In this document: piece by piece, positions 1-64,000 of the stretch | How positions within the stretch are numbered: the stretch's first letter is position 1 | How the letters are laid out: every line of letters starts with the position of its first letter | Made by a program: the position numbers and the translations under genes | Notes under the pieces: generated by a model | The model's input: only the letters and a program-made list of their open reading frames with translations | What the model was told of the DNA's origin: nothing | Database searches by the model: none | Assembly (NCBI GenBank): GCA_964023205.1 | Contig: OZ026844.1 | Coordinates: 32,225,326-32,289,325 of the forward strand | Reading direction: 5' to 3' | From: Lutraria lutraria | Taxonomy: Eukaryota > Mollusca > Bivalvia > Venerida > Mactridae | Length of the DNA: 64,000 nucleotides

Positions 1-56
1 AAATGAATTTTGATGGGCGTATTTTGTGACCTGGCACTCTTGTTTTATTTGAAATG
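1..56 (+). mobile_element. 3' end of the ACGCCC-type interspersed repeat
   Basis: AAATGAATTTTGATGGGCGTATTTTGTGACC is nearly identical to 29174-29222, the tail of the better-preserved copy at 28957-29222. The rest of this copy lies upstream of the window. Confidence 0.75.
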
Positions 57-65
57 AAATTTAAG

Positions 66-300: not shown

Positions 301-351
301 ATGAAAGTTCAGAAGAGTCTTGTATCTATGAAGTTTGTCTTTTACTTTCAG

Positions 352-510
352 GGATTTACCGCTGGCAATGAAAAACTGACATTTTCATTTGACCAAGTAC
401 AGATTTATGCAGATGGTAAATTGTCCTCAACTTTTGTTGATGAAGAGTCACCATCATTAATCCTGCAAATAACAACACTTTTAAGACTCCATGCTGGTTC
501 TAAAATAGAA
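352..510 (+). CDS. Exon 1 of window (phase 0-0): beta-rich part of a glycine repeat
   Basis: Acceptor TTTTACTTTCAG, donor GAA|GTAAGG, 53 codons. FSFDQV matches the FDEV motif of segment a in later repeats, so the window opens inside a repeat and not at the protein start. No methionine near the start could act as an initiator. Confidence 0.8.
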
Positions 511-33500: not shown

Positions 33501-36500
33501 TGGAGCTAACAGTGGAGGTGGTAGTGCTGGTAGTGTCTACATCATGACACAAAACTTCTCTGGACATGGTCTGATTGAAGCTACGGGAGGTGATGGTTTT
33601 GGTTACGGCTATGGTGGTGCCGGTGGTAGAATTGCTGTTCATGTGAAATGGTTTAGAGAATACTCTGGAGATTCTAAAGCCTATGGTGGCTTAGCTGGAT
33701 CAAGTGTATCTTCAGATGATGAAACAAGAAATGGGGCTGGTGGAACTGTCTACACTACCGATTCAAATGCTTTTGGTCTGGACAAGAAGGAAGTTGTAAT
33801 TGTAAATGGCACAAACACCTATGTTGATGGCTACACAAAGCTTCTTCTGGACAATGATAACAGAAATCATGTTCTTGGTACATCTGTAATGAATGATGTT
33901 GGGACCACTCCATATGTATTTGAGTTTGATGAAGTTGAAGCCAACAACCATGCTGTACTTTGGCTTGAAGGAGATGATTCAGAGCTTGTTGTACATAAAT
34001 TTGATGGAGACAGAACTGGTTTAATGCATTTATTGGGAAGTCAGAAAGTGTATGCAGAATATGTTGAATCTACAAGTGGATATACTGTTGCTCCTGTGAG
34101 TTATAAAATCGATTCTGGGGCTGAAATTATTCTACCATCTACAACTATCATACTGGGTACAAGATCAGATATGAGTGGCTTGTTAACAATGGTACAAAAT
34201 CTTACTATTGCTGATGGTGCAAACTGTGTCTTTACTTCTACAGCTCGCACAGCTCTCATAGAAGCTGGTGAGTATGTTCATCTTACACAACCTGGAAACA
34301 TTACTATTAGTCACTTAACAATCCAAAGAGGGTCTGAAGTAACATTCACAGAAAAAGTAGGCTCTAACCTAGTACTGGACTTGACAAAGCTAAGTATAAA
34401 ATATGAAGGACTTATGTGGATGAACAAGGGCTCCATATTTTCTGGTAATGCTGTAGTTGAAAGTCTCGGTATCTTAAATGTTGACTACATGGGTCATGAT
34501 GCAGATAATGGTCCAGGAGCTGGTGGATTTAATGGTTATGGTGGAGCACATGGAGGTCATGGTGGAGCTCCTGAACCTAATGTTGGTGGTACTCCATATG
34601 ATTCTGTCTACAAACCTACACATCCTGGAAGTGGAGGTGGTAATGGTGATGGTGTTGGTGGCAGAGGTGGTGGTTTTCTGTACTGGGAAATTGGTGAAAC
34701 TTTATGGGTTGATGGTGAAATAACACTTGAAGGAGAAGCTGGTCAGAGTGGCGATGCTGGTGGTGGTAGTGGAGGTGGACTGTTTATAAGAACAATGAAC
34801 TTTACTGGATTTGGTCACATTGATTGCCATGGTGGTGCTGGCATTGGTAATGGTGGAGGTGGCTCGGGTGGTAGAATTGGTATTCATATCAACTTCTCCA
34901 ACCGATTCATTGGTAGATTGAATGTTATTGGAGGACTTGGAACTGGAACATACCCATCTGGTGCTGCTGGAACAGTGTATCTTCAAGAAAATAACAGAGG
35001 GCCACAGTATGCTGACATCAAATATGACAATAATGGAAATGTTGTTGTTACAGCTACACACAGAAGAATTGAAATTAACAATGATGATATTGACAGTCAC
35101 TTGTATGTTGACCACAAGGAACCTTGGCTGTATACAATGCTGTTTGAGGAAGCTGACCAAGAATATGAATTTGATGAAGCCATGCTTGAAGGTCACTCAA
35201 ATCTACTGATTGAATATCCTACTGGCACTGTCAGTGGCTCAGGTTGGGCTGTTGAAGTAAAGATTCACCTTTTCCATGGTGATAGAACAGGGGTTGTAAG
35301 AGTGAGAGATAGACAGAGATTATATGTTGAAGTTGTTGAATCAGTCTCTAATGAGACCATTGCTCCATGCAGTTTTAGAATTGATGATGGTGCTGAAGTA
35401 TTCATGCCAACAACTACCAATCTTGTTGGATCAAGAACTGTAATGGCAGGTATTATTACTGGTGTAGAAGATATGATGATAAGAGGAGGTTCCAGTATTT
35501 TCATGTCTACTGCTCAAACAGCTCTTATGGAAAATAGAGTATACACTATGATGACAACTCCTGGTAACTTCACATTTTCATTTTTGAGGGTTATGGCAGG
35601 AGCTCAAGCAGAGTTTAGAGATATTACTGGAGAATGCATCATCACTGTTGCAGAGATGTATGTCAAATATCAGGCACTTCTGCTCATGAACTTTGTACAG
35701 ATAGATTCGGCATATGCTCATATAGAAAGTCAAGGTGAAATGAACATGGATGGCGTTGGTCATGGTCCTGAAGATGGGCCAGGTGCAGGATCAACATTAA
35801 ATGGTATAACTGGTATTGGTGCAGGACATGGTGGATATGGTGGTGGGCCAGGACCTAATTATGGTGGTATACCTTACAATTCCATCTATGAACCTCTAGA
35901 AGCTGGTAGTGGCGGAGGTAATGGAGGAGGTGTAGGTGGCTATGGAGGTGGATACTTGGAATGGAATGTTGGTGATCTAATAGAAGTGAATGGATTCTTG
36001 ACTGTTGCTGGAAGTGATGGTGTTGGTAGTAGTGCAGGAGGCGGTAGTGGTGGCAGTATTCTGATGCACACAACTAACATTACAGGACATGGAATTATGG
36101 CTGTCAATGGAGGAAATGCTGCTGGAACTGGAGGTGGTGGTTCTGGTGGTAGAATCTCTATCAATTGTCGATTCAGATATTCCTATGGTGGTGAATATCA
36201 CAACTATGGAGGTGATGGTACTGGTGTAAATCTTGGTTCCCATGCTGGTGCATCCGGTACCACATTTAAGGAAGAGAACCTTAGAGCTGTAGAATACAGA
36301 GAAACCAAGTACGATCCTGTACATAACACAACTTTCCTAGATGTAGACCATCATATGATACACTCAGACAACAGATTGAAATACAGTCCAGCTCCTACTG
36401 TTATACAAGATCCTCCAAGAGAACTTTATGAATTTGATGAAATGGAAATAACTGGTTCTACATATGTCTGGATATACCACCCAGCTGGAGTTAATCTAGT

Positions 36501-39500
36501 TGAAGTCATTGCTCATAAGTTCATTGGAGACAAAACTGGCCAACTTCACATTCGAGCAAACCAAAAGGTATGGGTAGAATATATTGAATCAGTATCAAAT
36601 AAAACAGAAGCACCAGTTAGCTACATCATAGATAATAATGCTGAAGTTGTATTCCCATCAGAAGTTCATATTCATGGTACAAATAGTACATTTGCTGGTT
36701 TGGTTACTGGTGTTCATAATCTTTACATTGAAGATAAAGTATGGGCTGAATTCAAGAGTACTGGTAATACTTCCTTATTGGAAAATGGTGTCTATTTTAG
36801 AGAGACAGTCCCAGGACATTTCATATGGGATCAACTTCACATGAAACAAGGAGGAACTGCAGGTTTCCTTGATATTAAGAATGAGCTTCTTGTTGAAACA
36901 AGTGAGATCAAAGTAAAATATCAGGGTAATTTATACATGAATAAAGCAAGAATAAACAGTACATACTCCTGGATTGAAAGTGAAGGTATTTTCCACTTAA
37001 ATGGACATGGTTATGGTCCTGAGACAGGTCTGGGTGCTGGGCATACTAATTCTAGTGGAATTGGCTATGGTGCCGGTCATGGTGGCTATGGAGGTGGATC
37101 TGATCCTGTAGCAGCTGCAGAACCCTATGGAAGTATATTTTCACCGATAGAACCTGGAAGTGGTGGTGGTAATGGTGGTGGTGTTGGTGGAAGTGGTGGT
37201 GGTGCTCTACACTGGGTAACAAGTCATTACTTCGAGCTTCATGGTTTGTTAGCACTACAAGGCAGCAATGGAGAAGGTACTAATGCTGCAGGAGGAAGTG
37301 GTGGATCAGTGCTTATTGAAACAATGAACTTAACTGGCCATGGTGTTATTGATACAGCAGGTGGTAATGGAACAGGAGTTGGTGGAGGTGGTGCTGGTGG
37401 TAGAGCAGCAATTCATTGCAAGGTATGATGTCTGTTAACCTTGTCTGTTATGAGATGGAAATATCTTTACAGTTTCCTGTAACTTACTGTTTATAATTTG
37501 AAACATAGTGCAATTCAGTTAGCAAAATGTTGCTTTATTTCTGTATAATTTTTGAAACCAATAGAGGATTCTGAATTTTGTTTGTTCACATTTTTATTAC
37601 ATTAAATCAGTCCAGCTGTTATAGTCAGTTGAGATCTACGGATGGCTACTACAAAATGCAATTATAAGTTGTATGTCCAGGCTTTTTAAATCAATGTCTT
37701 CCTTTTATGGATTTTTTTTTCAATTTTTATTTTTCATGATTATATTTATGTGTTGTAGTGGAGGTATGAATTTGGTGGTACATTTATCAATCACGGTGGT
37801 GTAAGTTTGCATAGTGATACTGAAGACAGTCATGCTGGGGCAGCTGGTACTTCATTCGTAAAAAACAACAAGAGACCCCTTGAATATAGACTTGTAAAGT
37901 ACAGAGAGGGAACCAACAAAAAGTATTTTGAAGTAGATCATAGGTAAGATTTTCTGTTTGTATCATTCAAATCAATAGGGAGAATTGGTCTATTATTAGA
38001 GGTTATTATATTTTACTTGTTCGAGTGTAAACAATCATATAGTTATTAAAATTATTGCCCACATTCAATGATTTGTACAGTGGAGTACTATTTGCTAAAT
38101 TGAAAGATTGCTGATCCCAAAACTTAGTAGAACTAGTCACTTGGTAACGCAGCTTGTGACAGTTATTGATACAACCATTATGATGTCTTGGCTTACAACA
38201 GTACTTATTATATACAAGTGATTTTCATCAGCTTGGTCTGATACTACTAATTTCCTTTTACCTAAATATTTCATTGATTATCTGTTAGGTACCTTCACAT
38301 GGACAATGCAGGAATAAAATCTCCAGTTCCAACAATGATTATGGAAGATCAAACAAAGCTTTATGAGTTTAATGAAACACAAGTGGATGGCTATGCTAGA
38401 GTAATGTTTTATCATCCAGCTAATTCCCAGGTAGAGGTTGTCATTCACAAATTCCTTGGTGACAGAACTGGCCAAGTCCATATGAGATCAGACCAAACTA
38501 TCTATGTAGAGTATGTTGAATCAGAATCTAATGTCACTGAAGCACCAGTAAGTTACATCATTGATGACGGGGCTGACGTAATTTTCCCTACTGAAGTTCA
38601 TTTACAAGGTATTAATACAACACTTGATGGAATGATTACTGGAGTTCATCATTTATACATGGAAGATGGTTGTACTCTTAGTGTTTCTAGTACTGCTCAA
38701 ACTGCACAACTTGAAAATGAACAACATGTTGAAATTTCAGACCCTGGAAATTTTGAGTTACCAACAATCAATGTAAGGTATGATGGAATACTTGAATTCA
38801 GGAAAATTACCAATGATTTCACAATTACTGCAGCTTTCTTAGAACTGAAATATGGGGGTACAATTTTGATGAATCATGGTTACATTGAAGCAGGTGATCT
38901 TGATATGGAATCTACAAGTATATTTAGTCTTGAAGGGAGAGGTTATGGTGCACAAGATGGGCCTGGAAATGGAACATCTACAAATGGTGCAAGTTATGGT
39001 GGTGTAGGTGGTGGTGCATCTGATTCTAATGCTTACGGTTCACTATTTGATCCTTATCATCTTGGTAGCGGTGGTGGTGGTAGTACAGGTGGTGCGGGAG
39101 GTGGCTTTGTGAACTTCGCTGTTGGTAAATCTTTACATATTGATGGATATGTTGATGCTTATGGAGCTGATGCTACAGGAACTGCTGGTGGTGGTAGTGG
39201 AGGTACAATATTTATCAAAGCATACAATATGTCTGGTCTAGGAACATTAGATGTATCTGGAGGAGATGGTAGTGGTTCTGGATATGGTGGAAGTGGTGGA
39301 AGAATAGCTGCCCATATTGAGAGTTACAATCTATTTGCTGGACAATACCTTTCTCATGGTGGTGTCAGTGGTAACAATGTTGCACAGAATGCTGGTGGTC
39401 CTGGTACCATATACAAGTTTGAATCCAACAGAGGTCCATCATACAGAGAACTTAAATATAATCCAAGACTTGATAAGACAATTATTGAACCAGAACATCG

Positions 39501-42500: not shown

Positions 42501-45500
42501 GCAGTGGGAAAATATCTTGCTGTTGTTAAAGGGAGGTTGTTGCTCAAGAGAGGGTCACTCTGGATAGGTTGTACACATTGTACTGATAATAAGAGTAAAT
42601 TAAAGTAATGAACAGCATCTTTATTACACTAGGGCTAAAATTTATTTGTACTATTCATGAGCTCTTTATATGCAGCTTTGAAAGTTTATGAGGTACTTTG
42701 TTAAGACTTGTTTACGAATAAAACTTGATATTATGCATGAATTGTGCCATGCTAGAAAGTGTACAATTTAAAAACATCTTCCTCATCATTTTTATAGAAC
42801 ATATGGGTGGAGCATATTGGAGGAGATGGCACTGGTGAGGTTCAGATAAGTTCTGGAATAATCATGGATCTTGCTGAAGATCATATGAGGACACACGTTC
42901 AATCATCTCTATACGTTCATGGCATTGTCAATTTCCCAACAACCACATATGCCGAAAGATATGTCACTATTGAAGGCAATATGAATGGTGTGGAACATTG
43001 GTATTCTAGAGGTCATACAAAATTGATTTCTACAGGACAGTCAAGTTGTTCTTCTGTTGATATACATTCTGGAGTTTATTATTTCACAACCTTTACCGTC
43101 TTGAGTGATGGTCACTTCAGTTTTGCAGACATCAGTTCATTTAATGTTAGTAGCAGCATTTCAATATTTACCGACAAACTCCGAATGGAGGGTCAATCAC
43201 ATGGATTTATCAACCAATCTGCAAATGCGATTGGTCAAGAAATGGAAATTGAGAAGCAATCAAATCTAGATGGAATTGGTGAAGGTTATCAAACAAATTC
43301 TGGACTTGGGTCTGGATGCTCTAATGGCTGTGGATCTGGTGGAGGTCATGGTGGTTCTGGTGGAAGTTGCAATGGCTGCGGAAGTTGTAGTGGTGGTAGT
43401 GAATATGATAGTCAGATATTACCATCTGTATCTGGAAGTGGAGGTGGTAGTTGTTCCCATAATGAAGGTGGTGCTGGTGGCTCAGCTGTTAGACTTGTAC
43501 ACATTTTCAGTGCAGTTGATGGTACCATTAACATGAGTGGAGAAGACAGTATTGGTGGAAGCGGTGGTGGTGCAGGAGGATCTGTATGGCTTGATAGTGA
43601 TGTTATAGAAGGATGGGGATCTATCTTCGCAAATGGTGGGACTGGGTCTTCAGATTCATGCAGTTACTATGATTCCCACAGAGGAGGTGGAGGTGGTGGT
43701 GGCCGAATAAGAACATGGGGGAAACATTACACAAATAAACTAATTCTACACAATAGACAGGTGAATGGTGGATCTGGATCTTATGGAAATGGTGGATCAG
43801 GCAGTACATACAGATATCATGGACAAGTCTGCAGTGGATATGGAACCTGGAATACTACCACTGGTTTATGTAAATGTGCAAGTGGACATGTTGGCCATGA
43901 TTGTCAGTTTGTCTGTGGCAATGATATAACATGTGGTGGAAATGGTATTTGCAATGATCAAGGACAATGTGAATGTAACACTGATTTTGTTGGAACACAC
44001 TGTGAGAGTCAATGTCACAGAGATGTAGATTGTAGTGGTAATGGTGAATGTTCCACTTGTGGTTCCTGTGTATGTGATCCATGCTTCTCAGGTCCAGATT
44101 GTTCCATTGAATGTGGAGGATTTGGTTCATGTGTTGCTGATCAGTGTGTATGTGATGATTGTCATCTTGGAGTTTTCTGTGAATCAGAATGTAATTCACA
44201 TGGTGCTTGTAATGCAAACAGCAACTGTACATGTGATGCCAACTGGGGAGGAGACAAATGTACAATCAAAGGTTGTCCTGGAGCAGATCTGAATTGTAAT
44301 GGACATGGAATCTGTAATTCTGGAACTAGCGAATGTTTCTGTGACATTGGATGGGAAGGTAAGTTCTAAATCATGATTGAAAGCAGCTTAGAAATTTTAT
44401 AGTAATACATGTACTTCTTTATTAGATATGAGTTCATACTTTTAATTTCAAACCTTGTTGAGCAGAACAAACCCGTAAGTATAACACATTATATTTTAAC
44501 ACAGGTGATGATTGTGGAGTACCTAACTGCCCTGGGGAACCTAATTGCTACAATCAAGGATTGTGTAATGAACTCTATGATCCACCTATATGTACCGACT
44601 GTCACACTGGTTGGATGGGACCAGCTTGTAATGATGTATGTCTGTATGGAACACCAAATTCTAACCATACAATATGTCATTGTGATCAGACATGTCACCA
44701 TGGTAAAGGATGTGATATTGAATGTTCAGGCAATGGTATATGTGATCCTAATGGAAGTGGTGACTGTTATTGTGATCCTTTGATTGGATGGGATGGAACT
44801 TACTGTGAAATACCAGGTATGTAGAATCACGTAACCATATACATGTAATTACTTCAATTGTCATTCTTTTTATCTACTCAGTATACTTCTTGCTGTGTAT
44901 CAACATGTATTTTCTCTCCTTAAGTACTTATCAAGGGTTATTTAGCTTCCCGAGCACTTGTGAATGTAGAGTTAGGTATGTTAAAAAAGAACCAAATTTT
45001 TCCTACTTGTAGGTTGTCCAAGAAACCCTGTTACAGATGTTGAATGCAGTAACCGTGGCAACTGTGACTCAGAAAAAAGAGAATGTATGTGTGATGCTGG
45101 ATGGGAAGGTGCAGCCTGTCATATTGCTGATTGTCCAGGTGAACCAAACTGTATGGGACGTGGAACATGTGATGAATCAACTAATCCACCACTTTGTGTA
45201 TCATGTGATGCAGACTGGATGGGTCCAGCATGTAATGATCCTTGTCTTCACGGAGTACAACAACCAATGGACAGTGGTATATGTGTTTGTGAAGAAGGCT
45301 GGGCAGGAGTAGGATGTAACTCTGAATGTTCTGAACATGGCAGCATAAGTACTGTTACCAATATGTGTGTTTGTACATATGAACTTGGCTGGAAGGGACG
45401 TGTCTGTGATATTCCAGGTTGTCCTGGATTGAACAATTTGGACTGCAGTGGAAGAGGTAACTTATTGTTGTTTTAAGTCATTGCAGTTTACATAGGTACA

Positions 45501-48500
45501 AATTTTGTGGTTTCTTTTCAAATGTCTGAATCATTTGTGTTACAAAAGAAAGTTATAAAGACTATACGTCTAGCATATATTATTGTGGGTGCATATTTTA
45601 ACACAGTTTTTTATTATAGGTGGTTGTGATAGTACAACAGCAACATGTACATGTAACAAAGGATGGCAAGATATTGGTTGTGAATATGCTGATTGTCCTG
45701 GTGAACCTGATTGTAACAACAATGGAGCATGTATTGACTCTACAGATCCACCAACATGCTTGTAAGTATCTCTGAAGTGTTTGCTTATTTTAAATGCCTG
45801 CTCTGTTTAAAAATATTAAAATACTTGAGGAAAACTTCTTCTGATCAATAGAAATCAGAAAAAAATTAAGTTTTTTACATTATTGGAAAAAAGTAAGGAC
45901 ATCTCACAACAATTTGACCCTTTTTATGCCCCCTTATCGATATATTGGGTGCATATTGTTTTTGGCCTGTCTGTTAGTCTGTTTGTTTGTACTAGAATTT
46001 AACCTTGCATATATTATCAAAATGCTTCCAAAATACAGTCATCAAACTTCATTATGTTGGTTCCTCATGACAACCTCTACAGGGCCTGTGCAATTTAAGG
46101 TCAGTAGGTCAAAGGTCAAGGTCACCAGAGGGGACATTGTATTTTAAAAATGCATCTTGTTTATGTTAGATTTGTACGTAAATGAACTGGTGCTGGTACA
46201 GATTACCTAATCTTATAAAAATTATGTCCAATAATTGAGTTTAATTAATGATAATTTAAAGTGTACTTCATATTTGAAAATGTCTGATGTTTGAATGGTT
46301 TCTTGACAGATGTTCTGCTGGTTGGTTTGGTGAAGCATGTGAGGAACCATGTGTCAATGGACAGATGAATCCTGTTGGAAGTCAGAATTGTGAATGTGAT
46401 CCTGGATGGTCAGGTATCAACTGTGATGCTGAATGTTCATACCATGGTAAAATTATCAACAATGCCTGTTTATGTGATATTGGCTGGAGAGGCAAAGTAT
46501 GTGATACCCCTGGTTGCCCTGGAAACCTTATAGATTGTACTGGACATGGTGACTGTAACACAGCAACTCATGAATGTACATGTTACAGTGGGTGGACTGG
46601 TCAAGATGATGGAAATGGTTATGTAGATCCACTGATCAATGCATGTGATGTACCTGACTGTCCTGGCTCTCCTGATTGTAATGATCAAGGTGTATGTGAT
46701 GCTTCACTGACCACACCAAAATGTCGAGACTGTATACCAGGATGGATGGGAGAGGCATGTGCTGATATTTGTGATGCTGATCATGGAGAACAAAGTCCTA
46801 TGAACAGTGGATTCTGTTTGTGTGATTCTTGCTACACTGGTAAAGGTTGTAACAGTGAATGTGATGGACATGGACAGTGTGTTAATGGTAAATGTAATTG
46901 TACTGTTGGTTGGAGAGGATCCAAATGTGAGGTACCAGGTTGTCCTGGTAATGGAACAGATTGTACCAATCATGGTGTGTGTAACTCTGCACTGCACATG
47001 TGCACATGTCTTCCAGGTAAGTGGTATACGAACTGTTACAATGCTGATTGTTCAAATATCAAATCTTCTACATACAAAATAAATAATCCTTATACATATA
47101 GGTTATGGTATTTTAGAAATTAGGTCTCTTGGAATTTAACATGAGTTTTATTTCTAGGATTGAGTATTTGATATACTATGTGTGATATTTATTGTATTCA
47201 GACAATTAGTGTACTTCTATCACACATGTAATCCTCTTGTTTATATGTATAATATGTGTGTCATATCATACATTTTGTTTCAGGTTGGACTGGAGATGGA
47301 TGTGATATACCAGACTGTGGTGATGGTGCATGTTATATTGCTGAAGGAAGAGGTTTATGTGATGGATCAACTGGTGCACCTATATGTGTCTGTAATACTG
47401 CTGAAGTAAGTATAGATTCATACTGTACTGAACCTTTACATTGTTAACAAGTTCTTTAATCTGGTATAAGCTCCTCAATCAAATTATTTTAATGTTTTTA
47501 TCTTGTCTATTTCAACTCTTTTATAATGATATGTATCATTTGCTGTCTGGTCAAACTGATGTAGCATATCATATATGATTTTGCTGATTTTTGCCATATC
47601 CGTTCAAATTAATTTTTAATCTATTATTTAAATAAATGTTCTATTCAGGGCTGGTTTGGTCTCGACTGTGACAAGAAATGTGAGAATGGAACAGTTGTGA
47701 TGAACAATCTTGGTGGAGAATGTGTCTGTGATCCTTGTTATAATGGTGATAGATGTCAAATTGAATGTTCAGATAATGGTGTTTGTGACAATTCTACTTG
47801 TCAGTGTTTCAGACAACCTAGTAAGTTAACTTAGATGACATGTATTATTTAAATATATCATGCATTCTCTTCTCTCATTTGTGGTTGGTGTTCACAATAT
47901 GTTCAAATTAATTTGTTTCATTATTCGATTACCACATTATATGTGTTACCATTTTTATTCAAAATTATTATGGAGGTTCATTAATGTTTACTTTCTATCA
48001 CAGAAAATGCTTGGGTTGGAAGCCTGTGTGAAACAGAAGGATGTCCTGGTACAGATGGTCAGTGTGAACAACATGGATCTTGTATAAACATGGAATGTGT
48101 TTGTTTCCCTGGATGGCAACATTATGACTGTAGTATTCCTGAATGCCCTAATGACTGCCATGGTAAGCTCATTGTATACTCAAAATGCGTAAAAGTCTGG
48201 GGTGATATGGAGCTGAGCACTATATTATAGAATGTGATATATTTCTTTCTGATATAAAACAAATAAGAAAATTATTAGTCTACAATAAACATTAACAAAT
48301 TGATTCAATCATAGGAACCTATAAATAAATTAGCTTACAAAAAAGATAATGGACTATTTTTGGAAATGCAGTGTAACAAACAAATTTCGATGTGCATTGT
48401 CTTTGTTCAGTTGTTCTCGACGTACAGTGCAGCCTGTCCAAAGGAAGGAGCAAAACTATGTTGTTATTGTGAGGTTGTTGCTATAGAGAGGTTAAATTAA

Positions 48501-51500
48501 TAGTTAAATCATGCAGCGAGAAAACTTCATGCTATTGACGAAGGGAGGTTGTTGCTCAAGAGAGAGCCACTTTGGAGAGGTTGTACTGTACAAATTTTTA
48601 ACAAGCGAATCATTTATTTTCACTCTTGTTGAATTAAAGGTCAAGGACTTTGTGAGTATGACGAAGAACTGGAAGCAGGAATATGTCTGTGTAATCCTGA
48701 ATGGATCGGAGATGATTGTAGTATACCATGTATAAATGGAACAAATACTGGTGATGGTATATGTACTTGTCATAGAACTTGTGATACAGGTGTGTTTTAT
48801 CTTTGTCATTATAGTCTGAGAACAATGTCAGACAATTTTGTAATATTTTTGTTTTGATCTGAATTTCAGTAACTGACCATGAATTTTTATTTTTTCATAA
48901 TGTTTGCTCTAATTGACCTAAGAAATCATATGGGTTTAATATGCTTAACAGCATGAAAACAAAAAATGTGCTAACTTGCATTAATAATTTTATTGAAGTA
49001 TTGTGTATTTTGGGTGTGTGTTTTAAGTTTAATGTAAAATACTTATTTTTCCGAATGTTACACTATTTTATCATAAATAAAGCTTCAATATTTTTCCAGC
49101 ATTGTGAAAACTGTCTCACACGGTGTTTTGCAGTTTGTTAACATTTTTAATTTGACATTATTTAAGGTCTTTCCTGTCACCTGACTTGTGAAGGACATGG
49201 TACATGTGATCCAAATGGTGATTGTATATGTGACTTTGACATGGGATTTAAAGGTATTGACATATATTAACTTAAACCTATGTTAACAACAAAAATTTAC
49301 GTCACATAATTATCTATGTGAATCACTTCCAGAATTGTTGAAGACCTTTTATGATGGTTTATGTGTAAAAACATGTTGTTCTAGTTGATGGCAGATGATA
49401 AATGTTGGATAACCAGGCTAGTCAGAAAACTGCATTGAATATTGTGTGTAATGAATATTGTACTGTATTTATTTTACTAAAGGTGACCTGTGTAATGTTG
49501 ATAGGTGTCAAGGTTGGCCAGAAAACTGTACAGTATAATGTATTAGTAATGTAATGTATTTATTTTACAAAAGGTGACCAGTGTAATGTTGACGGATGTC
49601 CAGGCTGGCCAGAGAACTGTATGGGACATGGTACATGTAATGCTGCTAATGGAGAATGTCAGTGTGAACAAGGTTGGAAAGGAAATGCCTGCCATATACC
49701 CGACTGTGATTGTAATGGCATAAATGCTACATGTGAACAGAGGACTGGAGATCTCAAACCTAGATGTTATAATTGTGACCATCCATATATTGGTGATCAA
49801 TGTCAGTACAGATGTGTACATGGAGTTGAAGATCCCAACACATTTGAATGTATCTGTGATGCATGTTACAGTGGGGCTGAATGTGATTCACCCTGCAATA
49901 ACCAAGGCAACTGTACCACTAATGGAACATGTGATTGTGGATTTGATGGTTACAGAGGTGACTTCTGTGAAATAAAACAATGTCCAGGTTATGATATATC
50001 TTGTACTGGACATGGTCAATGTAACCCAGCAACCAGTGACTGTAGTTGTTCTACAGGATGGGTTGGTATTGGTTGTCATATTGTTCAATGTGATAATGAC
50101 TGTAGCAATTCAGGAACCTGTTTACCCCTGGATGTCCCAGAATGTAACTGTAATACTGGTTATTTTGGATCTGATTGTGGAAGTTTCTGTCACAATGGTG
50201 ATATCATAACACCAGATCCTAATGATTTATCCAGTCAGTATTGTTCATGTCACTCATGTTTTACTGGTTACGAATGTAACACTGAATGCTCTGGTCGTGG
50301 TTCTTGTCAGAATGGTGCATGTGACTGTGGCACTGATGGTTGGAGGGGAGACAACTGTGAGAAGGCTGGTTGTCCAGGTTTATATGGAACTGATTGTTCA
50401 GGTCATGGTAGCTGTATCACAGGAGCTGCTGATGCCATTGGTAAGACTAAGACCTCATTCTGAATATTAGCCAAATAATCATAGTTAAAGAAACCTTTGA
50501 TGCTGAGCATACAAGTACTCTATCCTTAAACTGTTTATGGCTTAAAATGCTGTTGTCTTGTTTGCATTTGAAATATTTCTTGCCTGTCAAGAAATTTAAC
50601 TTAATTACATTTTTCTACTGTTGCCTTACTTTATTCTGTTTGCTTTAGTCTTTAAAAGTATTTTGAGAAAACAATTACAAAGCATCATAATTAATTGGTT
50701 ATTTTTTATTTTGTAGGTACTTGTACATGTGACACTTACTGGGTAGGAGATGGTTGCTGGACGGCTGAATGTTTCAACAATTGTTCTGGAAATGGTCTAT
50801 GTAATGATACAGTTGATGTACCATTCTGTACAAATTGTGATCAAGGCTGGATGGGACCAGATTGTAGTGAGCCATGTTATGGTATCCAACAACCAATGGA
50901 TAGTGGTATGTAATACATTTGAAACTGTTCATAGTTTTACTTTTATTTGTCTAAATATACTAATGACAGTTGTAAGTTCTTTTAGTTGTATTCAATTTTG
51001 TAAACACTCAAATAACAATAAATGTATGCTATCAAGACTGTTGTTTTGTAATGTATGACTAATTTGAAAAAAATGCACACCTTTAATTAACCATATGTGA
51101 TGGTGTTATGTAAAGTTCATCTTACTTCCAGGTATTTGTGTTTGTACAAGTAATTGTGAAAGTCAAGCAGACAGCTGTATGACAACTTGTAGTGGATATG
51201 GTACCTGTGACTCAAACACTGATTCTTGTGTATGTAGTGATGATACAGGATATAATCCTACTGGATATTGGGGAACATTATGTGAAACAAAAGGTTGTCC
51301 TGGTATTGGATCATCTTGTAGTGGTCATGGTCAGTGTATCCAAGGTAACTGTAAATGTGATCCTGGCTGGACAATCAACTCTACATCTTGTCACGTACCT
51401 GACTGTCCTGGTACCCCAGATTGTAATGGAAATGGTGATTGTGATACTAGTGGAGTGGTACCAGTATGTTCATGTTTCCAAGGATATATGGGAAATGAAT

Positions 51501-54500
51501 GTCAATATCCATGTATTAATGGCCAAGCACAACCAGATGATACATGTCTCTGTGATCCTTGTTATACTGGTGCAGCTTGTGATGAAATTTGTAGTGGACT
51601 TGGAACATGTCAGAATGATACATGTGTCTGTAATAGTGGATTCTGGGGTAAGTTTATTATGTTTGATAAACAATGCATAGCATTTTATATGTGTGATATG
51701 TGTACTAACATCATACTCATCTGAAAAGTGTTGTTATATAAAAGGTACAAATATCTGAGAATTGGGAAACATCAATTTCATTTATAATGGTGAATTGCAA
51801 AATCTTTACTTCAAGTTAGAAAATATGAAATGTTTACAGCTGATGTTGTTTTATGACTCAATGATTCTGAAATTTATTTTAGGTGCTGAATGTGATGAAC
51901 AAGGTTGCCCTGGTGATGGAGAAAGTTGTTCTGGAAATGGTATCTGTACTATAGCCACACAAACATGTACATGTGATGTTGGTTGGACAGATATTGGTTG
52001 TAATGCTTGGGACTGCCCTGGTACCCCAGATTGTAATGAAAAGGGTAATATTTACTGTTTTTGCGTTAAATTTTATATGCTCAAATAAAACAGCAATTGA
52101 AAAAATGCATTTCCATACTGAAATTAATGCATATTTTGGTTTATTTTGTATTTATATAATTATATGTTTTTATAAGACCATCAAAAATGGGGAAACATGT
52201 TGGTTATGACAATACAATGACTTGAATGTATGTGCAAATGTATTAGTTATATTGATTCATTATATATCTAGGTATTTGTGATGGTGCAACTTACTGGCCA
52301 CCAAAATGTATTGACTGTCTTGACTCCATGGGAACAGAATGTCAGTATGATTGTATACATGGTATAGAGGATCCACCATTTTCATCTGAATGTGTCTGTG
52401 ATCCATGCTTTGGTGGTTTCTCGTGTGACATTGAATGTAGTTCTGTTGGCAGTTGTTCTGTTGATGGTTCAGGAGTAGTGGTAAGTTCTGTTACACTACT
52501 ATGTCTTAACATTACATATTTTGTTATGATGAACTTACACTTACCTACTTCTAAGGTATTACTAGTTTAAATCTTGACAAATCTCACTATGTATGTTTCT
52601 TATTAAATTAATTTTGAATTAATCAAATCTTGTCTGACTAATTGCTAGAGAACGATTGGGCCTAAGGTTCTCAGACTTGGTTTGAAGGTTTACTCATCAC
52701 TTGTAGATTACCCTTATTGATTTTGAGGTCAGTAGGTCAAAGGTCACGGTTACCTTAACACAAAAGCTTTGTCTGCCATTAACTAGAGATTGTTTTGGCT
52801 TATGGTCCACAGATAAGGTAACAAAGGATAAAATTGTTTGAAAATATTTGCCAGAAAGCTTACAGTTACTTTCAGTATAAATCTTTCTCAGATCAATAAC
52901 TTAATCAATAAATTATCAACCAGCTGGCATTTCAGGGGCTTGTCTGTTTGACCTACACCTTGGTCATTTGTGGAGAACATACAAGTTTTTTAAAAGCATA
53001 CTTAATCAAATTTGGTTGATACGATTTTTTTTCCAATACTTTCAGGGATGCTCTTGTAGTCCTGGATACAAAGGGGACTACTGTGAACAACTCGATTGCC
53101 CAGGTAAGTTATCATAGCAACTATTCATGCTTTAAACAATAATGTGTACCTTTTTATGTTTAATTTTGATTTGCAGACTACTCTATTGTTTTAGATATTA
53201 TAACATTCTATGGTATTCTATAGAATTATATCTGTATTGTGCCATTCATTGAAAATCACACTTTGAGTGATCAACAATGTTTTAGAGCTCCTTTCCATCT
53301 ATTTAAATTGTATTCAGAAATATGTTTTATTCTTGTACATTTGTTTTCTGTTTAAAAGGTGACTGTTCGGACTATGGGCAGTGTATAAGAGACACAACAA
53401 CTGATAGTTCTAAGTGTATATGTGATGCTGGCTTTACTGACGATGATTGCTCACAGTTTGTCTGTCCTGGACCTGATGATGATCCTTGTAATGGAAATGG
53501 TATGCATTTGTTAGTGAAATCGCCTCCATATATTATTAAGGGATACATTTTTGTGTGTGTTTATGATGATTGTAAAAGACTTGTTATCAATATTTTATTT
53601 TCTTCCATTTCCTAAAACCATTGAATACTTCCGAAAATTATTAATATCCCCCTCCCCCCTTGGAAGAAGCGGGGTATATTGCTTTGCACATGTTGGTCTG
53701 TCCGAAATCATACTTTGCCAGACCTATAACTGAGAACAGTTTGGCCTATGACTTGCTTCATCATGTGCAGTTGATCCCTTTTGATTTTGAGGTCAATAGA
53801 TCAAAGTCTTTCTAATAAGTTGGCATTAAGTGAGCGTTCATGTTTAACAAACACCTTGAACATCTACTGCGCTTATATCACTATTAAAAGTGCTTTATTT
53901 TGTTTGCTTCAGGTGACTGCTTGTTACTACCAGGATATGCCGCTCCACAGTGTGTATGTTACCATGGCTTCAATGGTCTTGCATGTGACACATGTGTGAC
54001 TAACTTTGTTGGTACAAATTGTGAGAGTTGTCGAGATGATTATATTGGATATAATACAACATGTGATACTTTCTGTGCAAATGGATATGCTACAGAATAT
54101 GGTATACCTTTTATTCAATATATCTAACTTCATCATTTAGAAAAACAATAAAAGACTTCATTTTTCACCTGATAAGTATTACTGGAGATGCATTACTGTG
54201 GTTTCATTCATTTCCATTTGATATAATTTCATGGATGACCCGAACCATGATATCCATAAAAACAAATCCCCTACAAAAAATAGCGAACTACTGTATCCTG
54301 TATAAACTCACTTTCATGTTCTAGTATAATGGCTTCTAGTTCTGTTTTTGTTTAAAGGTGGAGATGTATGTGAATGCTATGATGACAATACAAATGGACA
54401 CTGGATCAACCCTGAGGCAGGATGTGGAGATTGCTTGATTGGATGGAATAAACCAACATGTACACAGTGTGCATCCAGTATGTTTCTAAATCTTACGTTT

Positions 54501-57500
54501 TACTTCCTTAGGCAGTATATCCTGAAAGTTTTCGTTGATGGAATATCATTACTTGATACAAAATGCTGGTTTAATTTTGCTTATGGAATTGCCACAAAGA
54601 AGCGCTTTAATAGATACAAACTCAAGCTGGCTGTCTGGCTATTCTTGTTGGCTGACTGCCACTCGGTTATAAACAGTATGACTGCAAAGTTGTCTTGCTG
54701 CTAATACGTAACTTTTCATAGATTAATGATAATTATGTATTCAGGCAATTAAAAAGAACAGTGCATAATTATGCACCATTGATACTTAGTATCTAACTCA
54801 TGTTATTATTCTTTATACTATTTCTGTTATCAAAATTTAATTATGCTTATCTTCAGATTTTGTTGGACCTGATTGTGATATTGAATGCATCGATGATCAA
54901 GGATATTTTGTAGACAATGATGATGGCAATGTACTTAACTCTCCTATCTTACCTGATTTCAAATGTATTCAACAAGTTGACACTGATATGTACCACGCGT
55001 TGTTCGGATATGAGAATACAAATCCGAATAACATCTATATTACTGCTACAAGTGAGAATTCTGTATACCGGAGTGCAGCTGCAGATAATTCCTTTATTCC
55101 ACCAACAAAGTTTATAAAAGGATCGGTGTACTTTGCCTATAGTATTGGGTAATTTTGTTATTTTCTTTATTGACTGTTTATTATATAAGTATGAACATTT
55201 TATAAAGAGGGTTGTTGGTGCTTGTTTTCTTCAATACTAAAAAAATACTTAGCTGTTATAATTCAATTCCTTAAGTTTACTCATGAATATTTAAGCTCCT
55301 GTTTGCATCCAATGAAAAGAAATGAAATAAAGAATACATGCAAAAAAATGTTCTTCTCGTTTTTCAGTCCGATGAACATTAGTGAAATTGCTAAATACAG
55401 TTGGCAGATAACAACATTGGCCTTGGCTGAAACTTCTATTGCAGCGGTTGATACTTCAAGTCTCTGTCCTAGTACACCTGTACTGGTATGATTTTCATTT
55501 TATACTCATGCATGTCTCACCTTATATAAGGTGACTCACTACCATGATTGTTTGCTTATATGATAAATAAATAAATCACTGTATTTATTAGTGATGAACT
55601 TTTTTATGCTTTTTAAGAATTTCCATTAAGATACAGTGTTACCTCCCTACAACAGCTGCCAATGGGAAAGACAAAAATGGATGTTGTAAAGAGGTGGCTG
55701 TTGTTGAGAGAGTGAGAATAGAGTAAAATGTCAATTTGGGTTACTAAAATACTGACTGTAACAGGGAGGTAGCTGTTGTTCGGAGGTGACCATTCATGGA
55801 GGTTACACAGTAGTACCATATTAAAATTAATTGTGGAAACTTAACTTGTAATATTATACTTACCAAGTTAATTAAATATTTGTAATAAGTGTCTAAAAAA
55901 TGATTTTCTTACAGGATACTCTTCCACAAGTGACAGGTACATGTAGATGTCACCATGGTTACTTTGGTGAAGACTGTTCAATTGACTGTCCGGGAGGCGG
56001 AAACAATCCATGTTTTGGTAAAGGATCATGTGATGCTTCTACAGGAGAATGTACATGTATACAAGGAGCAGATCAATCCAACAATTGTGAAACTTGTATA
56101 TCTGACTGGTTTGGAAATGACTGTTCCCTTGCTGATACCAATATTGAAGGTAATTATATTCAAACTTATTTTGGTTGTTTATGTTTGGTTCACAGCATCT
56201 TCACTAACAGATATAATGATTTTAGGAAGAGCTGTGGTTTAGGGGTAGAGCGTCGGACTCTTTACCCAGAGCTTGTGGGTTTGAATCCCGTCAGTGGCAG
56301 AATTTGACCGGAACCTTCACAATCCCTTCTTTCAACGCAAGTACTGGTCAGAATCCAGGAAGCATTCATCGAGAGTAGTTAATATAAGTTGTAAGAACTT
56401 AATCTACAATCGATGCATAATAAATAAGTTTAAACTATGTAATAATTCAAACAAGCATCTTTCATAAGCTCTTATATTGCTGAAGTTCAAGCTGATGTAA
56501 TGTTGTTTTTAATTGGTGAGATTTTATGAATGGGGAAAATAAGGAAAATGACATAACAAAACTTATCTTGTCTAATATCTCATAATCTATGTTGAAGTGG
56601 AATACAATGTTTAAAGACTACAATAACTTCTAGTGATCAGCATCTTGCACCAGACTGACTTACCAAGTGCTTTATTACACATTTAAAGATGCTAGTTAAT
56701 TTTTTAAGAAATTGTTTTGGTAATACGATCATTCAGGGGTTTAAATATGGTTCTGTCATTGAACTTAAGACAGCATTATGAAGCTAATCCAATGCAAACA
56801 AAATTCAGTGAGACAGAATTCAGAAGTTGGTAATATATAATTCTCAGACCTAATTTGGTCTGATAATAAAACACTGCAATGATAATGTTTGACATTTTGT
56901 TATGCAGACTGTTGAATATATCTTTATCAATTGTTTTTTTTACTGTATGCAAATTGCATAATGGTTGGTGGAGTAAATACGTATTCACCCCAAATTGTGT
57001 CATCTTATACCTCATTAACATATCACAATTATGGATCAATGTAGTCTTTCATGAGTTTATTTTTTCCTTGAATGTTTTAAGTAATACTTTGAAGAATAAG
57101 TCTATATTTTTATGTTATTTCATCATAGGCTCTAGCAATGAATGGCACAGAGGTTATGTATATGGATATGGCCATACACAAACATACGATGGTACAAAGT
57201 TTGATAGCAATGAATATGGACAGTATTTGATGTCATCTGTTACACTGGCCACTTCACAGAATCTTGAAATACATGGTCTCAGAGTAAGTTAATTGTTGGC
57301 TTTTTTTGTTCTTTCAGCTTAACTATTTGATATCTGACTAAATCCATGTGACATAAAAAAATAACTCATCACTCATTGGTTTAAAAGTTTACTTAAGTTT
57401 AAACAAAACGCTTTTATAATGAATATTGTTATTCATTGTAAATAATGAGTTTTATTGTTTTATTCATAATTCTTTATTAGTTCAAAATTATACAATTCAA

Positions 57501-60500
57501 TACCAAAATGAAATTTCATAGTTTATGATGGTGATTTTTATGTCATGAGTGTGTCTACATAGGGAGATATTAATGCATCTCATAAAACTTATATCATTAA
57601 AGGTGTCAGGCTCAAATACTGTCCCAGTTGCTGTAACAAATGCAGTAGCTTTCACAGTGGGTGGAAATACATTAGTCATACAAGCTGATGGTGATGGATC
57701 TAAAGGTTCGGTATGGTACAATAGTGTTGAATATACCATTGGGTCGGGATTAGAGTTTGCTGCTGAAGTAAGAATTACCCAGTCTTCACCAACCAAATTT
57801 ACTCTAACTGCTTCAACAGATCTCCTTGTCAACATTGATGTAAAAGATGGGTTCCTGAATATGTATATCAATAGTAAGAGTTCAATTTGTGCAACAGCCA
57901 CAGGTTTCCTAGGAGGATGTAATGCTGATCCTACTGATGACTTTGTTACATCAGATGGTTCCACTCTCCTGGTGAATTCAGATGATCCAACACATCAGTT
58001 GACAGCTGACAACATTGCCAATGAATTCATATCATCTTGGGCTACAGAAAATGCCCTTTTTAATGATATCATCCCAGCCTTCACCAATGCAGCTGGTGAG
58101 ACTTGCCTCAGGGTAAGTTCAAGTCCATTAGCAAGCTCAACTGTGAACTACTTCACTCCATCAGAACTCACCATTGATATGATTTTCTATCTTGAAACTT
58201 TGTCTGATGATTGTGCCACACTTTGGTCTTACAAAAATCCTGATCAGAAAACATTTGCTGTACTTGTTTGTGACTTATCTATTTCTTATACCACCATTGA
58301 TTCTTCTGGGCAGACAATATCTCATGAAATTATTGACACCTTATCAGTGGATCTTAATACTTGGTATAAATTAACTGTGGTATGGACAATATCTGATGAG
58401 ACTTTCTTCTTCTATATATTTAAAGACGATTTATCTTTTAACAATGCATATGTAGTTACCAGTGATATGACGGATGTATTTACGCCAGGTGGGTATTTCA
58501 TGCTAGGCTTGACAAATAACCGCTTGTACCAATTTGATGGCTTTATAGATGACTTCACAGTATGGAAACAAGCGTATAGTATGGATGACATTGCTGGCAG
58601 AGCGTTTAGATACACAGATTCATCTTCTGAAGATGGACTGTCTTACATTTGGAGATTCAATGAAGGCCATGGATATATGACAACAGACTCAAGTGACTTT
58701 CACAAGTCTATAAGCTGGTTAGATGGTAACTGGGCTAATGTGCAGTGGACTGTTTGTTCATATGAAATGGATTATCCTACAAGTGAGGATATCAAAAACA
58801 TCTTGATATCTGATCCTTCTCCTAGCGATAGTGAATACTGCTGGAATCTTCTGAACTCTCTACCTGATATAAATCTTTTAAATGAAGCTGCAAAATATTT
58901 GTTTTATGAGGACTGCTTGATGGCTATAGCAATTACAGGCGATCAAGAAAGTGGAGATGATATTTTAGAGCCTATAAGTGATACAATTGAACCAAATCGT
59001 ACTTCACCTTGGTATCCATTGAGACAGCTCTGTAATGAACACCAAGAGATCTCAAACTGGCATGGGCCTAGCTGTGACATATATTGTATAAATGGAGCTG
59101 GTGTGTTTAATACCATAGATGACACATGTACTTGTAATAATGGTTACTATGGTGAAAGCTGTGACAGTCAATGTCCTTATGCACGTGGAGAAGCTTGTGG
59201 TGGTGGAACATGTAACCCTGTCTCTGGTGAATGTACTTGTTTATCAGAGAACTTTGATCCAACAACTGGATGTGAAACATGTTCTAGTGGCTGGATTGGA
59301 GAAGATTGTTCATCCGTAGCTGCCACGATCCCGTCTGGTCTCTCTCAGTATACAGCCATGTGCTTTGGTCAAGGTCACTGTACGATGTTTGATGGTCAAG
59401 CCTTTAGCATAAAAGCACCTGGAGAGTATTTGTTATTTGAAAAGCAATCTGAGTCACTATCAGTGTATGTGAGGATGAGACCCTGCGCTGGATGTAAAGT
59501 TTGTATACAACAGGTCTGGTTCAAACTGTTATCTGATGATTTTACTGTGAAGATTCCTCTAACTGAAGATAAAGCTGTAATTATGCAACACAATGGCAAT
59601 GCTGTAAGCATTCTCAGCCTTGAATCTTACACATTAGATGCGTCATCATCTGTTACATGGATAGACAAAGTTACTCTTCAATTTATTCATGATGCTGTGT
59701 CAATCGACATTTCATACATAGCTAGTTCTCCTTACTTTTCAATTAGTATAAAAACACCATGCTCAGTGGATGATCAATTTGGAATACTTGGAAATTGTGA
59801 TCTTGATTTGGACAATGATTTTATAAACAGTGATGGAAACACTGTCTCCTATAGTGCAATCAGTAACCAGATAATTGATGAATTCAGTGGATCTTACTCA
59901 GCTAGTGATCTTGGTATTAAGCATTTTATTTACTCTTATCCAGATTTAGATATGGAAGAAGCAGAAATCATGTCAAGTGGTTATAGTTTACTATTTAATA
60001 GCAGCGGTGTTATGTCAGGAAGAGTTCCAGATAATTCATTCGTCTTAAATGAACCTTTTAACGTTTCTGTTGAAATCACGATGAAAATTCTGAATGCTAA
60101 TGGTCTCATATTTGGTTACTATCCAGAACATCCATTTGCTCTGTACTTAAGTGACTCAATGCTGGAAATATATTTACTTGGAACAATAATACCAACTGAG
60201 TTAACATTATTGGAAAATCTATGGTACCATATTATTGTGACCTTAAATGTCAATAGTGAAGAGCTTCAAATATTGGTGTATCAGGATGGAAGTTTGCATT
60301 CACAGTTCTTAAGTTCTCATCCATCACTTGCTTTCCCTAATTCGGGTAATTTCTTCATTGGAGAATGGTTGTACAATTCACCTAAAGATTTTGGACAATT
60401 TCATGGCTTAGTTGGTGAATTTAGGGTCTGGAACATCTATCTTGACAGTTCAAAGATTCACCAACTTGTTAATCATGCTGATGTCACAAACATTGATGGA

Positions 60501-63500
60501 TTAGTGATGAACTACCAGTTTACAGAAGGATATGGCTACATCACATATGATTCTAAGAATGAAGTAGGAATGTCTATCACTGAGACAGGCTATAATATTG
60601 CTTGGATAATTTCAGACAAGCCTGGTAATGGTATTGATGACAATTCTTGTCAAAATACTTACAATGAAGACCGTATTGAAAAATGTAATGAAATGTTTGA
60701 TACCCAATCTGTAACAGAAGCTTGTGATGATCTTGGTACTGACTATTCTACTTTCTTTGTGGATGCATGTAAGAATGATGACAGTTATGTACCAGCTCTA
60801 GTTGCATACATAGAAGAATGTGAGACTATTTTAGAACCATCTACTGATCCAATTGATGACCTCTGTGATGATCATACTGCTGAACACTATGACAGTTTCT
60901 GTGCACATTTCTGCATGCATGGTACACCTACTGAACTTGGCTGTGAATGTGATGTAGGTTACTGGTCCTGGAACTGTGCAAAAGAATGCCCAGCTCGACT
61001 GGTCAGCAATATGCCTTGCTTTGGACATGGAGCATGTGATAAGAATAATGGCACCTGTATATGCAAAACAAATTTTGATCATGGCACAGATTGTGAAAAT
61101 TGTAATACACCTTGGAGTGGGGACTATTGTGAAAGGGCCAATGTAGATTTACCACCACAAAGTGGTAGCGGCAGTTCAACATATTCAACATGTGAAATGT
61201 ATGGAGAAATGAATGTTAGAGACTTTGATGGTAATGTTTTCTCTATTGCTCAAGTGAATGAATGGTACCTCATGAAATCATCAGACAGTTCAATCCCAGA
61301 AGTTAAAGTGCAAACTATCCAATGTGGAAGAAGTATATGTCTTAAATCAATGCAAGTAACCTATTCAGGTGATACTGTAACAGTAGATGGGACTGTTGAA
61401 TCACAATTAGAAAGGATAGTTATCAATGGAAACCCAGATTCTGTTTCTTCAGACATTTTCAATTTTTATGAACTGTCAACATATTCTTGGCTTATTGAGA
61501 CCAATACCAATGCTGATCATTTCTTAAAACTACGTGTAAATTTTCAGAAAATGGGATACATGTCTCTTTTGCTGAAGACTGATTCTTACGCACTTTCTGA
61601 GTTCACTTTATGTAGAACAGAACAGACATTTATAGACTCATACAACCCTACCAACTCATTAACGTTTGGAACAGTTCTTGTTTCTGGCGAGGATGAGACA
61701 CTTGATAATACACCCATTGAACCAAATACAGGTGACTTCTTCTCATTGAATTTTAGTTCTGATTCTTCCAACAACATTGGTTCATCTGATGGCTCTGTTC
61801 CTGTACCAGCATCTGGTGATAAATTTACAGTTATAAATTCACCAATCCTTAGTAATGTCTTTTCACCAGAGGAATCAAATACTATTAAAGTCAGCATAAA
61901 GCCAAATTCTGAAAGCTCAGGTGGTGTTATACAGTATGGTGGTGAATCAACATTTACATGCTTCCTAGAAAATGGTGTAGTAAAGGTACAAGCAGATGAA
62001 GACATTATTGATACTGGTATTAGCCTGCCTGCTGAAGAATGGAGTGACATAGAATTTACATTTAATCCAGTTCAAGAACTTGTGACATGTAGTGTTTCTC
62101 CAACCACAGCTTCAGATTCAAGTTCATCTAGTGAATCAACATCACAAACATTCACATTCCCAGTTCCCAAAATTTGTTTTAATGATGGAGGTACACTGAT
62201 GATTGGAAAGCCCATTGGTGCATTCAATGCTGCATTAGGTATTGTTACTGATGGCTCATTTGCAGGTGAAATGGAAAATGTTGAAATTTACAGAGGTGAA
62301 TCAGACATCCCTGTTGTTGATTACAACTTTAATGAAGGTTTAGGAAATACAATTTATGATCAGGTGGGAGGAAATGATCTTACTTTACATGACGAATACA
62401 ACAAAGGTTCTGCTGGATTTGTAATATCTTCAATACCATCTGAACCATTACAAATTGAATTATCAACTGGGTTTGAAGATGTAGAAACTTACAAGAATGC
62501 AAATGATGTCTGTGTGGCACTTTTTGAAAATGCTGATATTTCTAGTGCATGCTCAGACTTGAATGTTGATTTAAAAGCAATACATGAGAGTAGCTGCATG
62601 GATTTAATAGCTAGAGAAGGAGAAGGCTCAGAAATTTATTCTCTTGTTGCTTATGCAACTGCTTGTAATGAATTACTAATTGAAACAGAATCAGATGAAA
62701 ATAATGCTGAAACAAATGATCCAATCAAATATGCCTGTCACAATTATTTTCCATTTGCTGGCTATGTTGGTGAATCATGTGACATTAGATGTGTGAATCC
62801 TGTTCCTACAAGTGATGGTTTGACTTGCTTCTGTGCTGAAGGTTATTATGGTGCTGAATGTGACAGTGAATGTCCAGGAGGAGCAGACAATCCTTGTTCA
62901 GGTCATGGATTATGTGATACTACTACAGGACAGTGTACTTGCAGCTTCAATCGTCAGGGAGAAACTTGCTCAGAGTGTGCATCTGGTTGGTATGGAAGTG
63001 ATTGTCAAGCAACTATTCAAGATACATCATCAAACATGCAGAAATTTTCTGCTGCTTTCACAAGCAACAGTTTCCTAACAACTTTTGATGGAGTACATGT
63101 ACAAATGAACAATAATGATCAACCATGTATGTTATACAATGATGGAACAATAAATATTGAGGCTCAAGTAGGACCAACTGATCTATACCCAAGTGCTCTC
63201 AAAGCATTGGCATTATCAGTTGGTGATGATAGTGTAACCATCCATCCATATAACTCAGGATCTGTTTCATTGAATGGTGAAGTTTTTACATTAGGAACTT
63301 TGGATTTACCATCTAATTACAAAATAGAAAAAATCAACTCTGATCAGATTTCCATAACTGGACCAAAACAATTTGAAATGACATGTACTATTGCTGGAGA
63401 GGATGGTTTGGGTGTTGGTATGTCAGTAAGTAAGGCTGGGTGTAGGACTTCTGTAGGAATATTTGGCAAATGCACTTCAGGAGATTCATCTACATGCACT

Positions 63501-64000: not shown

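Follow-up and report, generated by a model that had tools for sequence, protein, structure and literature searches.

Whether the 64,000 nucleotides of Lutraria lutraria DNA analysed here (the window) belong to one gene, and what kind of protein such a gene would encode, is the question raised by this locus. A sequence-only reading had described a single gene whose product has glycine repeats followed by EGF modules and then by VWD-LamG-C8-EGF units, an order that looked novel, perhaps encoding an extracellular component. The present analysis suggests instead that the window lies in the middle of a bivalve gene for a giant type I membrane protein forming a very long cell-surface rod, a reading to which a probability of roughly 0.7 is assigned. 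If this is true, a cell-surface protein among the longest known is present in animals from anemones to clams to brittle stars, and its repeat unit, which has no Pfam match in the stretches scanned, also occurs in bacteria. Gene prediction would then have split such giant genes into pieces lacking function names.

Gene prediction

A splice-aware Viterbi gene finder was applied, with GT-AG splice sites, phase and cross-splice stop checks, and with gene starts and ends optional. Its coding Markov model was trained on the window's own long open reading frames, and its splice-site weights were general metazoan values. In a six-frame translation, the longest plus-strand frames are 57549-63998 (2,150 codons, open at its end), 33322-37428 and 21417-24488. 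The first solution comprised 64 exons in one plus-strand gene with no intergenic state, and lower splice penalties gave 66 exons and 10,994 codons. When five hints from self-similarity (introns resembling the protein itself) were added, ten exons were created or altered, and the final model is a single plus-strand gene of 71 exons from 352 to 64000, open at both ends, with a coding total of 33,626 nt (11,208 codons).

The model scores 5,691 on the plus strand as compared to 219 on the minus strand, an imperfect control as the gene finder was trained on the plus strand, and to 22, 23 and 34 on three 2-mer shuffles of the window. The single gene starting at 352 and still open at both ends, as claimed earlier, is reproduced, with controls that score far lower and relatives that are collinear; the giant size also stands, at 71 exons and 11,208 codons as compared to the earlier figures of 69 and more than 11,300. 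All 70 donors are GT and all 71 acceptors AG, the latter being imposed by the model and the former nearly so. The 11,208 codons contain no in-frame stop, which is informative mainly for long single exons since stops were forbidden to the gene finder. Among these are exon 41 (33350..37422, plus strand), a well conserved exon of 4,073 nt, and exon 71 (57603..64000, plus strand), which stays free of stops for 6,398 nt or more. Exons 4 (28 nt), 8 (17 nt), 57 (30 nt) and 68 (41 nt) may be false: exon 4 has no homologue and is the sole exon with under half of its residues covered by relatives, exon 8 sits within a repeated element and exon 57 within a 91-bp tandem duplication.

Arrangement of the domains

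The window protein begins with about 18 tandem Gly-rich units (GU) of about 400 residues each (352..43802, plus strand), encoded by exons 1-46 and the first part of exon 47 (residues ~1-7099), with 17.1% Gly and 0.6% Cys. A 332-position GU profile gave 19 matches in the window protein, the first two being probably parts of one unit, and no Pfam model matched the repeat in the stretches scanned. The EGF array follows (43830..56149, plus strand; residues 7109-8967, exons 47-69), with 43 profile matches, 297 Cys in 1,859 residues and the Pfam matches EGF_TEN, EGF_2 and EGF_Teneurin; 14 of its 23 exons are phase 1-1. Exon 47 (42798..44358, plus strand) reads without interruption, in a single frame, from the last GU into the first EGF modules.

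The remainder, also on the plus strand and mostly within exon 71, consists of units resembling D assemblies. VWD domain 1 (57161..57959) lies in exons 70-71, split by the intron 57284-57602, and is detected by both profile and Pfam. LamG domain 1 (58146..58592) is matched by Pfam Laminin_G_3 and the family profile, and C8-like segment 1 (58836..59033) by the family profile. There follows an EGF-VWD2-LamG2-C8-like-EGF/TIL-like unit (59271..61127), which was modelled in 3D, with VWD2 at 59364-59837, LamG2 at 60093-60458 and the C8-like part at 60678-60866. VWD domain 3 (61200..61601) is detected by profile and Pfam, C8-like segment 3 (62505..62678) by the family profile, and VWD domain 4 (63078..63479) by the family profile and not by Pfam, its exon still being open where the window stops. 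Pfam detected no C8 at E<=10 in the four window pieces scanned; the C8-like identity is suggested, at low confidence, by a predicted structure. The domain order read from the sequence, with Gly repeats preceding EGF and then VWD-LamG-C8-EGF, is borne out with about 18 GU, about 43 EGF modules and four VWD domains with LamG and C8-like parts.

Relatives in other animals

Among the best 120 of 701 matches listed, the closest named relatives are two heterodont bivalves, Mactra antiquata (82%) and Dreissena polymorpha (77%), each aligned over part of exon 41 only, and one relative reaches up to 86% identity in that exon. Ruditapes philippinarum, Mya arenaria and Pinctada are also among the relatives, and the matches make a heterodont bivalve origin of the window very probable. 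Overlapping family records are those of Pinctada imbricata (FSP39_005732), Ruditapes (LOC132750181), Mya (named 'TENX-like'), Amphiura, Diadema, Ptychodera, Branchiostoma (Bbelb_427260) and Actinostola (QZH41_005193). Module types and module order agree with those of the window protein in these overlapping pieces, and the alignments stay collinear across thousands of residues, but each record is partial or without one module, and their names give no function. Some database models are garbled, for example in the EGF region of Actinostola. One further record, P0132, is a 7,239-residue frame in a nearly intronless contig of 22,777 bp, probably a transcript, and runs from EGFs through D-like units to a membrane segment and tail. 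Two alignments were used, A1 with 32 of the 120 listed relatives and A2 with 10 relatives.

The module order recurs in bivalves, echinoderms (brittle stars and sea urchins), a hemichordate and amphioxus, and in a shorter form in a sea anemone; the window itself shows the GU array, the EGF array and the VWD-LamG-C8-like units collinear with these relatives. A search of other molluscs, as had been proposed, finds the order in other bivalves in overlapping pieces, and the notion that it is peculiar to this gene is contradicted by its presence across several phyla. As judged from these alignments, the order belongs to an old, widely shared animal protein and is not a mollusc peculiarity. The vertebrate and insect rows surfacing among the matches listed consist of teneurins and one reelin, which match in EGF modules alone, a picture that draws on 6 of 6, the best 120 of 701, and 47 of 47 matches listed, with a limit on candidate length.

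Conservation by position was evident from a tree of 65 GU from eight proteins, 28 of 93 profile hits (model span under 220) having been dropped beforehand. In this tree, 48 of the 65 units fall in 17 clades with support >=0.8 and at most one unit per species, and 17 units fall in no such clade. Different phyla are joined in nine of the 17 clades, six of which hold four to five species (two with five and four with four, two of these four including the anemone); the other three are one of brittle star and window and two of anemone and brittle star without a bivalve. The remaining eight clades are bivalve pairs only. A part of the GU array was probably fixed before the cnidarian-bilaterian split. 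Repeat arrays usually expand and shrink, and the many GU still paired by position across phyla therefore imply a length- or position-dependent job.

Continuity of the gene

Cover and junctions were assessed with 70 of the 169 proteins found, using alignments chained by score, in which a repeat unit may in places pair with a neighbouring unit. Collinear alignments with at least one of these relatives include 11,160 of the 11,208 residues. At 50 of the 70 splice junctions some relative aligns gaplessly across; over the 18 residues compared, identity is 44-89% at 40 of these junctions and 11-39% at the other ten. Mactra antiquata P0137 aligns to window residues 1-899 (66% identity), Actinostola P0134 in one piece to 179-1442 (24%), and Mya P0131 to 1014-5961 (61%) and 6504-7268 (54%). 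A single alignment of Amphiura P0129 extends over residues 2622-8706 (44%), from GU into EGF, while Pinctada P0127 covers 5681-9160 (46%), from GU through EGF into the VWD1 region, with a second alignment at 9235-10928 (22%), and Diadema P0130 covers 7108-11194 (29%), from EGF into VWD.

A break between its exons 46 and 47, taken here as near the GU/EGF boundary, was named by the sequence-only reading as an example of what would refute a single gene. This site is bridged by exon 47, and proteins of Amphiura, Pinctada and Ptychodera cross the boundary in single alignments; a gene break there was rejected, since exon 47 holds both parts. Pinctada P0127, the sole record to join GU, EGF and later modules, has no VWD profile match, and its precomputed Pfam list has LamG and not VWD; the link from EGF to VWD hence rests on Diadema, Branchiostoma, Ruditapes and P0132, in each of which one record has EGF and then VWD.

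It is improbable that two or more neighbouring genes have been read as one, for instance a GU-only gene that stops close to exon 16 and another that begins at exon 19, or EGF and VWD parts that belong to separate genes, though several observations lean that way. The Mactra record ends at exon 16 and the Mya record begins at exon 19, intron 16 is the largest intron (2,442 bp), and 20 of the 70 junctions, including 17 and 18, have no gapless homologue support, junction 69 (EGF to VWD) having it at 28% identity only. When gene ends carry no penalty, the gene finder places 17 breaks, and its output alone is hence no proof of a single gene; at a gene-end penalty of -12 or -6, however, no break appears, and at -3 there is one (30116-30989) without a gain in score. 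One GU (residues 749-1053, 242 bits) spans exons 14-19, and on this ground a break in the exon 16-19 region was rejected. Both the Mactra alignment end (899) and the Mya start (1014) fall inside this unit, and neither looks natural by eye, the Mactra record reading at its end into sequence unlike a GU and the Mya record starting unlike a signal peptide. The Actinostola alignment is also unbroken over 179-1442, albeit at 24% identity, and the four records with EGF and then VWD speak against a split at that junction.

That the window is a decayed or mis-assembled tandem array without a single product is far less probable still. Two Mactra records that match different parts of the window, P0137 and P0060, do sit on different contigs (41.9 and 45.8 Mb), which possibly reflects a second locus, a translocation or a misassembly, and P0137 may be a paralogue; there is also the 91-bp tandem duplication at exons 57/58. 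Such an array is, however, hard to reconcile with the lack of in-frame stops, telling mainly in the long single exons, with the protein identity of up to 86% to relatives, and with the brittle star alignment over window residues 2622-8706. The comparisons together suggest that the window covers the central part of a single, very large gene, and the single-gene reading is well supported.

Membrane segment and full length

A strong C-terminal hydrophobic segment was found in three of 15 proteins scanned, P0127 (Pinctada imbricata), P0132 and P0134 (Actinostola), with a mean hydropathy of 3.42, 2.98 and 3.05, respectively. Clustered Cys and basic residues come next, and then tails of about 441, 343 and 73 residues, respectively; the extracellular stretch before the segment aligns in all three relatives (FYCQ..V..C.L.G). 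The other 12 proteins scanned show no C-terminal membrane segment; they include the window protein, which ends before that region, and several that begin or end within a module and seem truncated. The records of Diadema, Branchiostoma and Ruditapes possibly reach the C-terminus, yet have no membrane segment. P0133 has two weaker hydrophobic stretches near its N-terminus, probably model errors, and the other 11 proteins have none. No signal-peptide-like N-terminus was seen by eye in six relatives.

No single database record covers the full protein. Upstream of the position that corresponds to window residue 1, Mactra P0137 continues for 6,539 residues, in which there are about 14 GU matches and, according to the precomputed list, an F5/8-type domain (PF00754); downstream, Ruditapes P0128 goes on for 2,685 residues after the window's end. 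A three-species composite (6,539 + 11,208 + 2,685 = 20,432), with P0137 assumed to be an orthologue, suggests a whole protein of about 20,000 residues.

Predicted structures

Two consecutive GU (34981..37422, plus strand) inside exon 41 were modelled with AlphaFold2 (pLDDT 88.7, pTM 0.79). The model is a parallel beta-helix, for which beta-helix structural matches were found, and the GU would thus be a parallel beta-solenoid as far as a predicted model can tell. Foldseek alone gave no PDB match for it at E<=0.001. As compared to the bacterial beta-helix adhesins EtpA, Ag43, pertactin and IcsA, sequence identity is 10-14%, and the secretion parts of those adhesins are not seen in the GU protein. 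In sequence searches of the PDB, the GU alone had no match at E<=10, the GU alignment matched only two antibody chains (E 0.75), and exon 71 had one weak EGF match (0.0069). A PHROGs search gave one weak match (0.002), and the best hit in a viral structure library (4.8e-6, TM 0.13) was uninformative.

The model of one VWD-LamG-C8-like unit, of low confidence (pLDDT 60.3), superposes on the D assemblies of mucins and VWF. Unlike in VWF, MUC2 and MUC5, a LamG domain is inserted here between VWD and the C8-like part, and three relatives of this family, in contrast to those proteins, have a membrane segment. The usual rise is 0.48 nm per rung in a beta-helix and 2.5-3 nm per EGF module, and a rough reckoning puts the part encoded by the window at about 0.25-0.35 micrometre if extended.

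Related units in bacteria and archaea

Eleven distant proteins were each matched 6-10 times by the GU profile built from the window, with scores of 13-152 bits that mostly exceeded 70, and an alignment of ten such proteins found loci (L001-L079) in bacterial and archaeal genomes. A GU-like Gly-rich unit is widespread in Verrucomicrobia, Planctomycetota, Lentisphaerae, candidate phyla and some archaea, and no EGF or VWD profile hits occurred in the bacterial and archaeal GU-like proteins examined. P0120, a GU-like protein of the prokaryotic type, has no Pfam match at E<=0.01. The NCBIfam model AgmC_N matches P0142 (Candidatus Auribacterota) at 8.1e-47, with a score of 160 against a cut-off of 275. 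For 21438-24476 of the window it yields 11 bits, below the 275-bit cut-off that defines AgmC; no AgmC_N match is listed for 33352-37422 or 38290-40245, and one window exon is matched only at an E of 0.14.

Proposed protein

The modules and the tail together suggest a rod with a beta-helix tip, an EGF stalk and D-like units, serving in adhesion or as a surface brush. The outermost part would be made of stacked beta-helix units, of which the window encodes about 18 and the upstream region perhaps another 14, followed by a stalk of about 43 EGF modules. D-assembly-like units (VWD, inserted LamG, C8-like, EGF/TIL-like) strung together would lie closest to the membrane, and the protein would end in one transmembrane helix, a cluster of cysteines and a cytoplasmic tail. 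By homology, the Lutraria copy presumably carries the membrane segment and the upstream GU. From its fold, and by analogy to bacterial beta-helix adhesins, the beta-helix part may bind glycans or other cells. The D-like units could let neighbouring molecules associate into an epithelial surface brush or glycocalyx.

One giant gene might also have a secreted product, a matrix, mucus or adhesive polymer assembled via the D-assembly-like units as in gel-forming mucins; the membrane segment of the relatives would then have been lost, spliced out or shed in Lutraria. This is unlikely, if considerably less so than a split into several genes is. A type I membrane protein fits better, since three relatives have the membrane segment, and this segment with its preceding stretch aligns between pearl oyster (Pinctada), P0132 and sea anemone. 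The pairing of units across phyla also speaks against a fast-evolving, mollusc-specific secretion, and Pfam reports no mucin family in the stretches scanned. On both counts, segment and pairing, the earlier proposal that the protein is part of a matrix, of mucus or of shell or byssus is disfavoured.

Beyond the membrane-anchored rod proposed for Lutraria, a broader view is held tentatively, at somewhat less than even odds. The protein may represent an undescribed class of animal cell-surface giants of at least 20,000 residues, each a membrane-anchored rod of about half a micrometre. Its beta-helix array, of bacterial type, would have been gained near the base of animals, its units and EGFs would have been kept largely one-for-one since the cnidarian-bilaterian ancestor, and it would be missing from vertebrates and insects.

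Comparison with known families

The EGF modules of the window match teneurin EGF profiles; the window protein differs from teneurins, however, in that no NHL, RHS/YD or Tox-GHH is found and GU and D-like units are present instead. Teneurins among the listed proteins, such as P0157, carry PF05593, PF25021 and PF15636, whereas the relatives P0127-P0134 do not. A teneurin identity was rejected, as VWD and LamG follow the EGFs in place of NHL, RHS/YD and Tox-GHH. The tenascin identity implied by the Mya name 'TENX-like' was likewise rejected, with no FN3 or fibrinogen match in seven long open reading frames, in four window pieces (Pfam) or among the precomputed domains of P0131. Neither the Ser/Thr/Pro-rich domain nor the cystine knot of gel-forming mucins has a Pfam match in exon 71, the C-terminus lying outside the window. 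VWDE combines VWD and EGF, as the window protein does; it is not known to have a GU array. The literature searched holds, among the matches listed, no description of a GU-EGF-D-like giant or of its module order, which is weak evidence of absence as subscription journals were mostly outside the search.

Other elements in the window

A tRNA-like element at 5469-5541 (Rfam tRNA, 44.7 bits) is perhaps the head of an intronic tRNA-derived SINE; ARAGORN finds no tRNA in the window. A minisatellite with periods of 27, 68 and 95 bp occupies 7642-8282 and ends just before exon 13 (8287-8477). The 91-bp tandem duplication (49459-49642, 80% matches) copies the acceptor side of exon 58 and may provide an alternative or decayed 3' splice site, modelled as exon 57. 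Dispersed intronic repeat pairs, 83-92% identical, lie at 9559-9733 and 55631-55805 and at 42431-42574 and 48443-48586, and a third pair, at 4502-4561 and 46053-46112, overlaps the doubtful 17-nt exon 8.
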